From the NCBI GenBank assembly GCA_002709085.1, contig PAPR01000048.1, forward strand, positions 1 through 64,000: a DNA stretch of 64,000 nt, in the 5' to 3' direction. Below the pieces are notes generated by a model. The model had not been told where the DNA came from and made no database searches. It saw nothing but the letters and a program-made list of their open reading frames with translations. The number at the start of each line of letters is the position of its first letter. Within the stretch, counting starts at the first letter, position 1. This stretch comes from Pseudooceanicola sp. (GTDB taxonomy: Bacteria > Pseudomonadota > Alphaproteobacteria > Rhodobacterales > Rhodobacteraceae). Shown here piece by piece: positions 37,251 through 41,769 of this stretch. The translations under genes and the position numbers were made by a program.

Positions 37251-37457
37251 TCACAGCGGCTTAAGGTCGCTCGCCATCTGACGGCCATCACGTCCGTCCT
37301 CAAGCTCGAACTCGACCTTCTGATCATCGGCCAATCCCGTGAGGCCGGACCTCTCGACCGCGGAAATATGAACAAAGATGTCTTTTCCGCCGCCCTCGGG
37401 TTCGATAAACCCGTAGCCCTTGGTTGTATTGAACCACTTTACGGTGCCAACCGGCAT
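37251..37457 (-). CDS. Cold-shock protein, CspA family
   Basis: A 68-residue cold-shock domain protein that binds single-stranded RNA/DNA. RNP1 is KGYGFIEP and RNP2 is DIFVHIS; the start MPVGTVKWFNTT is typical of alphaproteobacterial Csp. GAAGGAGA precedes ATG 37457. The frame extends upstream to 37514, but that part is not family-like. Confidence 0.95.
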   Translation of the reverse strand: MPVGTVKWFNTTKGYGFIEPEGGGKDIFVHISAVERSGLTGLADDQKVEFELEDGRDGRQMASDLKPL

Positions 37458-37662
37458 GCCGCGTCTCCTTCTGTCGTCGCCCGCGGAATTGCGGGGTATC
37501 AAGCCCAACCCCAACTCGGTCTCCGATTTGGTATGAAAGGTCCGGAAGCTGGTGCCATGGACCTAGGAAAATGCAGGAAAGATGTAAAAAGCAAGCAAAA
37601 CCGGGGTGAATCTTTGCGATTTGTTACCTATGTCTTCTCAATCGCCCAAGGGAAGGAACGGG

Positions 37663-37977
37663 ATGAAGCTCTTCGGCCTGAAAAATTGCGATACCTGTCG
37701 CGCTGCCCGTAAATCTCTGCCAGAGGCGGAGTTTGTCGACATCCGGGATTCGCCCATGGATCCGAAGCTGCTGGAAAAGGCGCATAGCCAGTTCGGTGAG
37801 GCGCTGGTCAACCGTCGCTCCACCACATGGCGGGGTCTCTCCGAGGAGGAGCGCGCGGAGGCTCCGCTGGACCTGCTGTCGCGCCATCCCGCCTTGATGA
37901 AGCGTCCGCTGATCGTGGACGGGGATCGCATGGTGCTAGGCTGGACTCCGGCGGCCAAAGCCGAACTGGGGGTCTGA
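37663..37977 (+). CDS. ArsC/Spx-family thioredoxin-fold protein
   Basis: The 104-residue protein has the ArsC-family fold, with CDTCRAARKSLPE near the N-terminus. Conserved NRRSTTWRGLSEEER and the RHPALMKRPLIVDGDRMVLGW block place it in the YffB/Spx-like branch. Most members of this branch are not true arsenate reductases and their role is unclear. ATG 37663 has AGGAACGGG upstream. The next gene starts 3 bases after its stop. Confidence 0.87.
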   Translation: MKLFGLKNCDTCRAARKSLPEAEFVDIRDSPMDPKLLEKAHSQFGEALVNRRSTTWRGLSEEERAEAPLDLLSRHPALMKRPLIVDGDRMVLGWTPAAKAELGV

Positions 37978-37980
37978 GAG

Positions 37981-38349
37981 ATGAGAAATGCCGCCCTTAT
38001 CCTTGGTCTCATCGGCGGGCTGATGGGCCTCTTGGTCGGCCTCTTCAGCTATGGCTATACCACCGCGATCGAGCAATTTGGCGAGGTCGAGGGCCTGTTC
38101 GAACAGGTCGCCAACATCAATGCGATCCGCGTGGCGGCTGTCGTTTCGCCCCTGCTCGCCCTTGCCGGGGCCGGCATGGCCAAGGTTCAGGCGTTGTGGG
38201 GTGGTGCGCTTTTGCTGATCTCGGTTCTGGGGATGTACCTCGGCCTCGGCTTCGGTTTTTTTACGATGTGGCCGATGGCGTTCTGCGGCCTCGCCGGGAT
38301 CATGGCGCTGGCTGCGGGTCAGCCGGACGAGCCGAAGGCGCATTTCTAA
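37981..38349 (+). CDS. Small four-helix membrane protein, unknown function
   Basis: A 122-residue protein with four hydrophobic segments (about 3-25, 52-70, 73-90, 92-110) and no named domain that I recognise; DUF4064-like small membrane proteins have a similar layout. It follows the ArsC-like gene after 3 bases. Its final 50 bases overlap, antisense, the end of the DoxX gene. Confidence 0.65.
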   Translation: MRNAALILGLIGGLMGLLVGLFSYGYTTAIEQFGEVEGLFEQVANINAIRVAAVVSPLLALAGAGMAKVQALWGGALLLISVLGMYLGLGFGFFTMWPMAFCGLAGIMALAAGQPDEPKAHF

Positions 38350-38863
38350 AGAACAGCCGATCCAACGACAGCGCCCCTCCGCCAAGCACCACTAGCGTGA
38401 CCAGCAGCGTGATCCAGAACGCCCGCTGATCGAGGATCAGCGCATCCGGCGCGCGGTCGAACCACGCGCCGAGCGTTTCGGGATGTTCAATCGCGCGGTG
38501 GCCGTAAAGGTCCGTCAAGCTCTGCAACACGACAAAGCCGATCATGCCAAGGGCAGAGAGCCGCGTCAGCAGGCCGACCACGATCATCAGCGGCAAGATG
38601 AACTCTGCCCACATGCCGGCCGTCACGACCGCCCAGTGAAACAGGTTGAGGTTGTCGAGGTTGTAGCCCGCCGCCTCAGTTGCCCGTGGGAAAATCTGCG
38701 CGTAGGCTCCGAGGGCGGGCGAGAAAATCCCGAAGATGCCGCTGCCCAGCTTGGTTATCGCAGAGGCCCAGAAGTAGGGCAGAAGCACCGCCGCGAAGAC
38801 GAACCGCGACAAGATCGGCAGCAAGGGCGTCATTCGGACTAGAGGGGCGGTCGGGTCGGTCAT
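38300..38863 (-). CDS. bufD: DoxX family protein of the bufferin operon
   Basis: A 187-residue DoxX-like membrane protein with four helices and the conserved LPYFWASAITKLGSG, EFILPLMIVVGLLTRLSALGMIGFVVLQ parts. Bufferin-type operons often end in a DoxX gene whose role is not settled; oxygen or redox supply for the iron oxidase or export has been suggested. The ATG overlaps the DUF2063 stop (ATGA), so it is part of the operon. Its last 50 bases overlap the convergent gene. Confidence 0.82.
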   Translation of the reverse strand: MTDPTAPLVRMTPLLPILSRFVFAAVLLPYFWASAITKLGSGIFGIFSPALGAYAQIFPRATEAAGYNLDNLNLFHWAVVTAGMWAEFILPLMIVVGLLTRLSALGMIGFVVLQSLTDLYGHRAIEHPETLGAWFDRAPDALILDQRAFWITLLVTLVVLGGGALSLDRLFFRNAPSARPADPQPAP

Positions 38864-39618
38864 GTTGTATCCTTCGGGCCGGTCAGGCTGCGGGTCTGCA
38901 TCAACAGTGTCAGAATCGCCGTCGGGTCATGCTCGGGCGTGGCTTTTGCGGCGACCTCTGCCGCATCGCCGAGGGTTGCACCGTCGCAAAGGGAGGTCAC
39001 AAAAACGTCGTCACCGGGGGCTAGCAGGTGCGGTACGGGATCGAAGTCGGGGCGCGCGATGAGAACCGCCTCCGGTCTCCGCGCAGCCACGGGACGGGAG
39101 GGATCGAGCGCACGCCGCCAGATCGACAGGATCGGCCAGTCGGAGGTCACCAACCGCAGCGCGGGCGCAAGTCCGAACCGGGTCTCGCCAAGCTCGGCTG
39201 GTGGGATCGCCGCCAGTGCCTCACCAGACAGGGGGGTGGCGTCCGCAGCGTGGTAGCTGTCGCGCAAAGCCATCTCCAGCCGTGCGAGATCCCCGATCCA
39301 GCGCATCCGCGCCAGTTGCGGAGCCGTGTCGAGAAACGCGGGCAGGGCTGCGCCAAACTGCGCCATGACCGGAGAGTCGGGGGGATGCTGACGCAGGAAC
39401 TGCCCGGCCATGGCGCGAAAGGTCTGATCGCCGAGCAGGATGTGACAGGCCGGAAAGCCGTCGATCAACGCCTCGGTCAGCGCGACGGCCACATTGTTGC
39501 GATAGACCGAAAACCGTCGCCCGGCGGGCCGCCCCAGACCGTCTAGCAGTGTCTCCGGGGTGGGCGCATCGGGTTGCAACAGCGCGGTGCGAAACTGGGT
39601 TTGGTCGGTGATGGTCAT
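38860..39618 (-). CDS. bufC: DUF2063 partner protein of the iron oxidase
   Basis: A 252-residue protein of the DUF2063/HvfC family. The N-terminal helical domain has the pattern [60 protein letters not shown] and [14 protein letters not shown]. It partners DUF692 oxidases and is thought to bring the precursor peptide to the enzyme, although the old name is putative DNA-binding domain. It overlaps both neighbours by 4 bases. ATG 39618 is chosen because the longer frame is inside bufB. Confidence 0.87.
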
Positions 39619-40472
39619 GCCGCGACCCGTCTCGGCGCACGGCTGAGGGCGCGGCGCGCGCGTGCAGCCTCTGCCGCGAGAATCGGCCACTCCGGTACCT
39701 CGGTGTCCCATTCGATGAGCAGCGGCGCCGGGCCGGTGCGCGCGAGGACGTCATCGAGCAAGGCCCAGACCGGATCGGCGACCTCGCGTCCGTGGCTGTC
39801 GATCAACAACGGTGCGCCGTGGTCGTCGTGATCCTCGTCATGCCCGCCAAGATGGAGCTCCCCGACGCTCTCCATTGGGAAATCCGCGACATAGGCCTGC
39901 GCATCCATGTTGAGGTTGGTGGCGGAGACAAAGACGTTGTTCACGTCCAATAGCAGCCCGCAGCCCGTTCGCCGCGTGAGGTCGCGCAGAAAGGCGGTCT
40001 CGCTCATCTCGCTCTCGGCAAAGGCGAGGTAGGAGGACGGGTTTTCCAGCAGCATCTGCCGCCCGAGGGTGGTCTGCACCTCGTCGATATGATCGGCCAC
40101 CCGTTGCAGGGTGGCTTGCGTGTAGGGCAGCGGCAGCAGGTCGTTGAGGAATGCGCCGTCATGGGTGGACCAGGCCAGATGTTCGGAAAAGCTCGCCGGG
40201 TTCAGCCAGTCGCACAGATGCTTGAGCCGGTCGAGATGGTCGGCGTCCAGCCGCCCCTCACCGCCGATCGAGAGGCCGACGCCATGCACGGAAACGGGAA
40301 AGCGTTCCGCGAGGTGGCGAAGCTGTGCGATGGGCCGCCCGCCCGCGCCCATATAATTCTCGGCGTGAATTTCCAGCCAGTCCACCGATCCGGGATCGGA
40401 CATGATCGCGCTATAATGCTGGGGTTTGTAGCCGACGCCGGGACCGGCGGGCAGGGTGGGTCTCTGGGTCAT
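39615..40472 (-). CDS. bufB: DUF692 multinuclear non-heme iron oxidase
   Basis: Members of this family (MNIO; MbnB, HvfB, TglH, BufB) use two or three irons to modify cysteines in ribosomal peptides. The 285-residue TIM-barrel protein has [34 protein letters not shown], the metal-ligand segment [44 protein letters not shown] and [13 protein letters not shown]. All expected His/Glu/Asp positions appear to be present. It likely converts cysteines of the precursor encoded 226 bases upstream into copper-binding rings. The start at 40472 fits the family; the longer frame is unsupported. Confidence 0.92.
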
Positions 40473-40530
40473 CGTTGCCTCCCCGATTGATGAACGATCC
40501 GCCAAAGGCCACTTGCCCGCATGCAAGAGT

Positions 40531-40548
40531 TGACGGTCGCCACCGTCA
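40531..40548 (-). other. Stem-loop between the bufferin precursor and oxidase genes
   Basis: TGACGGT-CGCC-ACCGTCA is a perfect 7-bp stem in the 226-base gap. It is not followed by a T run on the minus strand. A structure here could protect the precursor message and lower expression of the enzymes relative to the peptide. Confidence 0.5.
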
Positions 40549-40698
40549 GTCTGCGCAGATCACGGGTGATCTGTCACCGCTCACGTCCATGGCTTAACCC
40601 GAGAGGAGCATCACCCGAGACGTCGCGACAAGGCGGGCGGCACCAGCCCTGCCGTGTTTCGCGCAGAGCGGAACAAACCACCCTGCGCAGTCGTTCGG

Positions 40699-41019
40699 TC
40701 AGCTATCCATCGGCAGGTCACGCTCCAGCGCTTCGAGGCTGCCCATCTTGTCGTCGGGCAATTCGACCTTGTCGCCATCGGCCAGAACCGGCATAGCGCT
40801 TTCGCAGGTGCCATCCTCGACCAGCGTCCAGGCGTTGCCCTGATAGTCGACCTTAGAGGTCCCGGCGCAAGTCGTACCCGGTCCCGCGGCGCAATCGTTT
40901 TCCCCAGCGAGCGAGACACCGTAGCATTTGACCGCATCGGCCGCGATTGCGGTTGTCGCAGTGGTGGTCGAAACGGCTGCGATGAATGCGCCGGCAATGG
41001 CGAGCTTTTTATTGGACAT
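40699..41019 (-). CDS. bufA: Bufferin-type RiPP precursor (DUF2282)
   Basis: A 106-residue secreted peptide precursor. The signal peptide runs to about AIAADA; the core has four cysteines at 32, 43, 51 and 72 in the pattern [21 protein letters not shown], then [10 protein letters not shown] and GTC, which is the DUF2282 four-cysteine layout. An acidic tail follows. Modified peptides of this type bind copper in the periplasm and protect against copper stress. GGGAGA precedes ATG 41019. It is the first gene of the operon with bufB, bufC and bufD. Confidence 0.88.
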
Positions 41020-41427
41020 GAAAGTCTCCCTGAAATTATCGCGCATCCCATCGATGCGGTAGGTCAAGGGTAGTTTCCTAGTCCTTCGTCATCTACTCAC
41101 GACCCCGTCAAGCACACTTGCGTTACCCCGCGTGACCCAACGTGAAGCGTCATTGATCGCGCAGCCCCTGCTATCAGGGCTGCAGGCCTCGTATGTGGTT
41201 CATAGATTTCAACGCGAAGGGCAGATCGCGCGGCGTCTGAAACATTAACCGCCGATGGGATCGCTGATCGGGGGCTGTGACAGGCAAATGTGTCGAGATT
41301 GAAGGAATGTCGCGCCGCTCGTTCCGATAGCGCCTGTGATGCGACGTGCGCGGTCCCCCGCTTCGACCCGGCGGCGTGGGGCGCCGAAGCGAGGCCATAT
41401 TCGGCTGTCGACAATGGCGTGGCGGTC
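41020..41427. other. Non-coding region upstream of the bufferin operon
   Basis: About 400 bases between the DUF427 gene and bufA. It should hold the bufA promoter. I see a hairpin GCAGCCC-N9-GGGCTGC (41161-41183) without a T run, and on the minus strand GGGGTAACG near 41120, which recalls the GTAAC half of an ECF promoter but lacks a convincing second half. No coding frame is supported. Confidence 0.45.
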
Positions 41428-41769
41428 TCAGACCCGCTCGATCGTGACCACGTCCGTGGCGTAAAAGGCGAGATATTTCTCGATCCTTTCCATGCCGGCA
41501 ATCGGCTTTTCGTAGGACCAGGCCGCGTTCTCATGCGTCGTGCTTTTCGTGACGATTGAATAATAAGTCGCGTCGCCTTTTTTCGGGCAATGGGTTGTGT
41601 GTTCGGTCTGATCGAGGAAGGCCATCGCGATATCCTCACGCGGGAAATAGATCACCGCCGGGTAATCCCCTTCGGTCAGTTCCAGCGCGTTGCGGCTTTC
41701 GCCCAGCACGGCACCGCCCGAGCGGACGGTCCAGGTGCCTTCGGCCTTGCGAATGGTAATATCGGTCAT
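41428..41769 (-). CDS. DUF427 domain protein
   Basis: The 113-residue product is a complete DUF427 protein: GTWTVRSGGAVLGESRNALELTE, AVIYFPREDIAMAFLDQTEHTTHCPKKGDATYYSI and the ENAAWSYEKP block. These are cytoplasmic beta-barrel proteins of unknown activity. GAGGG lies before ATG 41769. Confidence 0.9.
   Translation of the reverse strand: MTDITIRKAEGTWTVRSGGAVLGESRNALELTEGDYPAVIYFPREDIAMAFLDQTEHTTHCPKKGDATYYSIVTKSTTHENAAWSYEKPIAGMERIEKYLAFYATDVVTIERV

Follow-up and report, generated by a model that had tools for sequence, protein, structure and literature searches.

Bufferins are among the largest families of peptides modified by iron enzymes. In Buf1, modification falls on the central cysteines, and a disulphide joins the first to the last (PMC12452194, Fig. 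3 legend); the cysteine-derived thiooxazoles chelate Cu(I) and Cu(II), as reported for the Caulobacter bufferin (PMC12452194), with four hydrogens lost per 5-thiooxazole (PMC13097082). Caulobacter carries two DUF2282-DUF692-DUF2063 operons under SigF, which acts at a promoter of the form GTAACC-N16-CGAA and answers dichromate (PMC3511200). The SigF-dependent CC3254-CC3257, which we infer to be the published Caulobacter Buf1 operon, encodes DUF2282, DUF692, DUF2063 and DoxX proteins in that order (PMC3511200). In the sections of the literature that bear on it, bufferin control has so far been described mainly through SigF; the main text of PMC12452194 mentions sigma factors and NrsF, and the words 'two-component' and 'Rhodobacter' are absent from it. 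Here, we describe a bufferin operon from Pseudooceanicola sp. (Rhodobacteraceae), in which control appears, from comparative sequence evidence, to have moved from SigF to a regulator of CenR type; CenR belongs to an envelope two-component system in Rhodobacter sphaeroides. The window referred to throughout is the whole 64,000-nucleotide stretch analysed (GCA_002709085.1, contig PAPR01000048.1, positions 1 to 64,000), and L numbers are our own labels for individual loci.

A Buf1 operon of known kind

Judged by its genes, the stretch at window 38300-41019 is a Buf1 (DUF2282) bufferin operon of a known kind, with the same gene order as CC3254-CC3257. A preliminary description made from the DNA alone had proposed this bufferin layout, with four co-oriented genes of the DUF2282, DUF692, DUF2063 and DoxX families and ATGA overlaps among the last three, and all of it was borne out: the open reading frame map places bufA-bufB-bufC-bufD on the minus strand with ATGA at bufB/bufC and bufC/bufD, Pfam matches recover each family (Table 1), and the Buf1 assignment is supported by conserved residues, by the gene order at family loci and by a BufB score of 378 bits against NCBIfam NF050167 MNIO_BufB (cut-off 310), where MNIO stands for multinuclear iron oxidase. 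BufB stayed under the cut-off for each of the HvfB (236.7 bits, cut-off 360), ApyH, MbnB and ChrH models, BufC and BufD matched the HvfC and HvfX models, respectively, only under cut-off, and BufA, with its four cysteines, reached 23.6 bits (cut-off 60) against NCBIfam BufA2, the model for Buf2 precursors. Buf2 bufferins and the oxazolin/EGKCG captophorins (HvfABC, FonABC) share with the window an MNIO, a DUF2063 partner and a cysteine-containing precursor, but theirs carries 6 or 12 cysteines or EGKCG repeats, whereas that of the window is a DUF2282 protein. The His/Glu/Asp/Asn MNIO motifs of BufB align with those of the solved relatives 3bww and 8hci; for BufC, a single-sequence search returned no convincing solved relative (one match at 0.091). 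The genome that holds the window (3.02 Mb, 78 contigs, 77% complete) contains one MNIO gene and one DUF2282 gene.

Tandem boxes and SigF promoters upstream of bufA

A motif search of the 260 bases upstream of bufA at 59 loci, namely 58 family loci chosen for bufA plus the window, returned ACR-N4-YGTGA-NN-CACR-N4-YGTGA, that is, two CACR-N4-YGTGA boxes 15 bases apart. Two loci with 100-base placeholder regions (L067, L079) were left out, and L080, with a short start call, had its start moved by 87 bases for upstream analyses and was omitted from the BufA alignment. The best log-likelihood was 759 (60 starts) against 104 in base-shuffled regions (20 starts), and 49 of the 59 loci, the window included, scored at least 18.9. 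Positions are confined to -94 to -142 relative to the bufA start in the family set, and to -92 to -161 once the named loci described below are added. The exact tandem pattern occurs 43 times in 149 family genomes, against 5 occurrences of a reversed control; 37 of these sites lie just upstream of bufA (26 placed by sequence and 11 by coordinate comparison), one lies upstream of the candidate cenR orthologue of the window's own genome and five lie elsewhere. With up to two mismatches allowed, that genome has two sites, at bufA and at the cenR orthologue, and none for the reversed control. The box ends at a putative -35 and is oriented with transcription. A simple sigma-70 scan found no promoter at the putative bufA -10 region; a CueR/MerR-type copper promoter at about 41040-41075 was weighed by eye only at first.

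SigF was considered as the switch of the window operon and rejected. Allowing at most one mismatch, no SigF promoter (GTAAC, spacer, CGAA) was found in the 260 bases upstream of bufA, and neither SigF nor NrsF was matched at the locus. Across the family, tandem operator and SigF type did not meet. The 80 named loci (Rhodobacteraceae or Roseobacter-type records, or alphaproteobacterial metagenome-assembled genomes) comprised 69 with the tandem operator, 7 with adjacent sigF-nrsF and an exact SigF promoter, and 4 with neither, with no overlap, though L222 combines a tandem operator with a stray GTAAC-type match at -226 within its 260-base region. The 59 family regions, the window's among them, served to train the tandem matrix; the named set is only partly independent and shares some loci with the family set. 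With identical upstream regions removed, 148 distinct bufA upstream regions divide into 118 tandem, 22 SigF type, 8 neither and 0 both, where a region is counted as SigF type if its locus has a SigF match or its promoter is exact (L068, whose NrsF lies elsewhere in the genome, therefore counts as neither) and a 200-base region is used, beyond which the L222 match falls. The regions of neither type are L035, L038, L068, L072, L075, L194, L212 and L220, several of them with a single or degenerate CenR-like box. Among the 10 genomes without the tandem operator, NrsF exceeded its cut-off in 6; among the 48 with it, NrsF did so in none, and one of these 48 has a match under the cut-off. Outside the family, 27 loci (30 fetched from the 57 class genomes matched, less L260, which has no BufA frame, and L265 and L271, which belong to the family) held no tandem operator (top score, 8.8) and nine exact SigF-type matches, some few of which lie a long way from the gene.

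The same division is found within the genus of the window, where sigF stands beside the buf genes in 16 of 18 genomes and the tandem operator occurs in the window and in L308; at a further locus, L319, SigF and NrsF were matched and no bufA could be detected. The closest named BufB relatives belong to Primorskyibacter flagellatus and Pseudooceanicola species, and the SigF-type loci of these two genera (L162-L164, L187, L240) resemble the window in BufB (77-86%) and in their ArsC-like and cold-shock downstream flank, but differ from it in that their bufA adjoins sigF-nrsF and has an exact SigF promoter. The window's neighbour in the BufB tree is a SigF-type sequence (support, 0.88), and L308 is placed elsewhere, which tentatively suggests two separate SigF-to-tandem changes in the genus. 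In this single-gene tree L318 and the groups containing L307 and L313 do not join the other members of the genus; BufB of L318 groups with other genera and was perhaps replaced by transfer, though sigF adjoins it. Since tandem operator and SigF are mutually exclusive across bufA regions and within one genus, bufferin control seems to have passed from SigF to a regulator of CenR type.

SigF-type regions themselves carry a related box. An exact promoter is present in 20 distinct SigF-type regions; a single TCAC-N6-GTGA box begins 19 bases upstream of GTAAC in 16 of them, at 20 bases in 1 and at 30 in 2, and is lacking in 1; the offsets of 19 and 30 are roughly a turn of the helix apart. In most SigF loci of the same genus, a single CenR-like box immediately precedes the -35 of the SigF promoter, and the box was seen upstream of SigF-type bufA promoters in L303-L307 and L309-L318. 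CenR may therefore act at SigF-type bufA promoters, or on the neighbouring sigF gene too, and because the box is present in both promoter types, input of CenR type may predate the swap from SigF to tandem boxes. By this reading of the promoters, a CenR-type box would stand at most of them, single beside SigF promoters and doubled where sigF-nrsF has gone.

The candidate regulator and competing explanations

Evidence for CenR as the regulator comes from a matrix built on the 31 Rhodobacter sphaeroides sites in Table 1 of PMC9275681 (consensus TcACg....cgTGA), none of which is labelled as a bufferin gene. Its best match among 128,000 window positions is the bufA operator, and TSACRNNNNYGTGAGT occurs once in the window against 0.02 expected. 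Sites of at least 10 bits were found in 109 of the 148 distinct bufA upstream regions, compared with 3 of 148 for the reversed matrix and 1 of 148 for coding DNA. The window's own genome encodes an OmpR-type response regulator, the candidate cenR orthologue mentioned above, whose tandem site lies 41-66 bases upstream of its start; orthologues at an identity of at least 72% were found in 94 of 100 family genomes. Its aspartates at 11-13, 51 and 56 stand where those of R. sphaeroides CenR have been described, D56 being the phospho-acceptor of the latter (PMC9275681). ACACR-N4-YGTGA precedes cenR in 26 of 27 family loci (from 30, with L123, L126 and L131 not oriented) and in the window's own genome, L123, which was read separately (ACACGAGGGCGTGA); the R. 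sphaeroides cenR site is ACACGAGCGCGTGAG (PMC9275681), and its 14-base core recurs in three family cenR loci. Genes activated by CenR in that species have the box upstream of -35, pointing with transcription (PMC9275681). The CenKR regulon described there resembles the window in its TGA-N8-TGA box (in the window's reading, TSACR-N4-YGTGA) upstream of -35 and also at cenR, and differs in that Table 1 of PMC9275681 holds no recognisable bufferin operon and that the window's box is doubled.

Taken together, we consider it probable that this is a Buf1 operon with a copper-binding product, switched by CenR at the tandem boxes instead of by SigF. BufA would be made with a Sec signal peptide, and the iron enzyme BufB with its partner BufC would convert C43 and C51 to thiooxazoles ahead of export; in the periplasm C32 and C72 would pair and the peptide would take up excess copper. 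The hairpin after bufA probably holds precursor mRNA above enzyme mRNA, and the operon would be turned on by the CenR response regulator binding the two tandem boxes just upstream of -35. SigF would not be the switch here, unlike in Caulobacter and most of the window's genus: the Caulobacter operon is driven by SigF, whereas the window has the tandem CenR-type operator, with no such promoter and no sigF-nrsF found. The preliminary description had taken a lack of copper induction as grounds for refuting a bufferin operon, a test that is not valid here because the SigF promoter was not seen and CenR-type boxes were; the parts of the CenKR literature consulted name no copper signal.

Several observations weigh against this account. 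The window operator departs from the tandem pattern at two places, the doubled box at cenR is found only in the window's own genome (tandem matrix above 15 in 1 of 30 cenR loci), and the CenR matrix comes from 31 loose sites; tested against shuffles at the 0.05 level, its upstream maxima fall short of significance in 15 of 59 regions. The R. sphaeroides table of CenR sites shows no recognisable bufferin gene (PMC9275681), the presence of the operon in that species not having been checked. Among the NCBIfam models none identifies the regulator as CenR, the best being MtrA (171.6 bits, cut-off 300), and a heavy-metal regulator subfamily model gave 148.8, under its cut-off of 279.2; the candidate orthologue is recognised by its aspartate positions and upstream box. 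As a positive control, tolQ was weak: 5 of 17 same-genus loci had a match at p <=0.06, one of these of another form, with the start codon probably mis-set in several loci; the best match, [TA]CRCGnCAATGTGTT in 7 of 17, is much like the R. sphaeroides tolQ site. NrsF is absent from the window's own genome as assembled, which is 77% complete, and lies away from the buf genes in two of the six NrsF-bearing family genomes (L068, L070). The AlphaFold model of BufA is poor, with a mean predicted local distance difference test score (pLDDT) of 61.6.

Some of these points would be explained if the tandem boxes of the same operon were bound by another OmpR-family regulator, perhaps a metal-sensing one with a CenR-like motif. 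OmpR-type regulators are many and the boxes short, and both the R. sphaeroides CenR table, with no recognisable bufferin gene (PMC9275681), and the curated models, none of which names the orthologue as CenR, leave room for one. We nevertheless think it unlikely, as the only other tandem site of this genome lies upstream of the cenR orthologue itself, and the bufA box both equals the cenR-upstream box of 26 of 27 loci and fits the R. sphaeroides matrix. It would be a different matter if the operon were still under a SigF encoded in the missing part of the incomplete genome, as the prevalence of sigF beside buf in the genus and the separate NrsF of L068 and L070 might lead one to expect; the lack of a SigF promoter upstream of bufA and of SigF or NrsF at the locus, together with the absence of NrsF over cut-off from all 48 tandem-operator genomes, makes this very improbable.

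The product, too, could be a bufferin by descent that has a use other than copper, be it another metal or stress of the periplasm or envelope in general. Envelope stress is consistent with control of CenR type, gold and other metals are discussed in PMC12452194, and dichromate is what Caulobacter SigF answers (PMC3511200); set beside the chelation of Cu(I) and Cu(II) by the Caulobacter Buf1 bufferin (PMC12452194) and the strong conservation of the four-cysteine core in the family, however, we regard this as quite unlikely. That the tandem motif is a non-regulator feature, for instance part of a leader RNA or of a conserved gene lying upstream, would fit its narrow position range upstream of the bufA start codon, but is scarcely credible: the motif has dyad symmetry about variable centres, a -10-like column comes after it, and it turns up again ahead of cenR. 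CenR acting at the tandem boxes thus remains our preferred explanation.

Precursor peptide, hairpin and genomic setting

Cysteines of BufA stand at positions 32, 43, 51 and 72 and, with 19 other residues, are invariant across 58 aligned sequences. The preliminary description had all four turned into copper-binding heterocycles. This is expected for the central pair, as we predict, by analogy with Buf1, thiooxazoles at C43 and C51; it does not carry over to the outer pair, which forms a disulphide in the characterised Buf1 (PMC12452194) and for which we predict the bond C32-C72. The C-terminal tail holds four of these 19 residues, G93, L95, R100 and D101. Its sequence, GSLExLxRDLP, hardly varies within the family and may serve BufC as a recognition (follower) element or else have a structural role. 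GSL follows the last cysteine in 23 of the 27 loci outside the family too, so that this part of the tail is general and the RDLP ending marks the family. Two bufA copies precede bufB in 3 of the 58 family loci (L038, L044, L050).

The 226-base gap between bufA and bufB is the second longest of 56 (median, 71.5; the three two-copy loci, with gaps above 300, were left out). An unbroken stem of at least 9 pairs, G-T pairs allowed, was found in 48 of the 56 gaps vs 6.0% of dinucleotide shuffles, and the folding z averages -2.9 in the family and is -2.4 in the window; hairpin sequences vary between loci. An intrinsic terminator 3' of bufA was considered but is not supported, with a T-run after the hairpin in only 4 of 56 gaps and no minus-strand terminator-like site in 38200-41430. 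The earlier suggestion that a stem-loop here fits unequal expression therefore gains support from conservation across the family, though not as a standard terminator: the hairpin likely protects bufA mRNA or raises its amount, termination being less likely. That the long gap once held a second precursor, since lost, was an idea weighed by eye only.

Table 1. Features of the bufferin locus, in window coordinates
Feature	Position	Strand	Remarks
bufA	40699-41019	-	Buf1/DUF2282 bufferin precursor, 106 aa; PF10048, 1.1e-21, 77 bits (cut-off 22.4)
bufB	39615-40472	-	MNIO bufferin maturase; PF05114, 6.5e-105
bufC	38860-39618	-	DUF2063 partner (PME type 1), 252 aa; PF09836, 2.3e-24, 85.9 bits
bufD	38300-38863	-	DoxX-family membrane protein; 2.6e-5, 25.2 bits (cut-off 23.6)
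Likely Sec signal peptide, BufA residues 1-26	40942-41019	-	Read by eye: lysines, Ala-rich stretch, terminal AIA|A
C43-C51 segment CAAGPGTTC	40867-40893	-	Predicted thiooxazole sites; invariant Cys, role from PMC12452194
C32-C72 span	40804-40926	-	Predicted outer-Cys disulphide enclosing the core; invariant Cys, role from PMC12452194
BufA conserved C-terminal tail, residues 93-103	40711-40743	-	Beyond the Pfam match, which stops at residue 74
Tandem CenR-type operator ACGCAAGTGTGCTTGACGGGGTCGTGAGTA	41094-41123	-	-104 to -75 relative to bufA ATG
Promoter-proximal CenR-type box TGACGGGGTCGTGAGT	41095-41110	-	Exact TGA-N8-TGA
Putative -10 TACCCT	41067-41072	-	From alignment; one base off the register of the family [CT]TAnnnT column
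Hairpin	40660-40689	-	12-pair stem (G-T pairs allowed), no T-run; begins 9 bases past the bufA stop
Cold-shock, ArsC-like and small membrane protein genes	37251-38349		Flanking genes kept beside the operon in most family loci

A BufA relative occurs in 211 of 295 sampled family genomes, and the 58 loci chosen for bufA have bufB and bufC in all 58 and bufD in 57, a layout that cannot be put down to chance. Downstream of the operon, an ArsC-like gene is found at 125, a cold-shock gene at 121 and a small membrane protein gene at 88 of 138 loci, some of them repeated between sets; the upstream neighbours in the window (DUF427, M24 peptidase, CobT) recur at none of the 138 within the locus DNA examined. 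From its wide occurrence and common downstream flank, the operon is old and mostly stays in place.

Possible control of copper buffering in Roseobacter-type bacteria

The operon itself is known; its control, as read from the promoters, would be a variant for which we found no earlier report among the literature matches listed, where neither a link between CenR and bufferins nor DUF2282 together with Roseobacter names appeared; a few of the matches mention CenR as well as copper. Whether the essential CenKR programme of the cell envelope takes in the copper-buffering peptide in Roseobacter-type bacteria, with control having moved away from the metal-stress sigma factor SigF apparently more than once, is to our minds an evenly balanced proposition. 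Control by an envelope two-component system would tie periplasmic copper buffering to the building of the envelope and not to copper itself. If most Roseobacters do use the CenR box in this way, copper buffering would be a matter of envelope upkeep, and the usual copper-induction tests would miss it. The swap within a single genus also gives related pairs, one of SigF type and one of tandem-box type, in which the replacement of a regulator could be studied directly.

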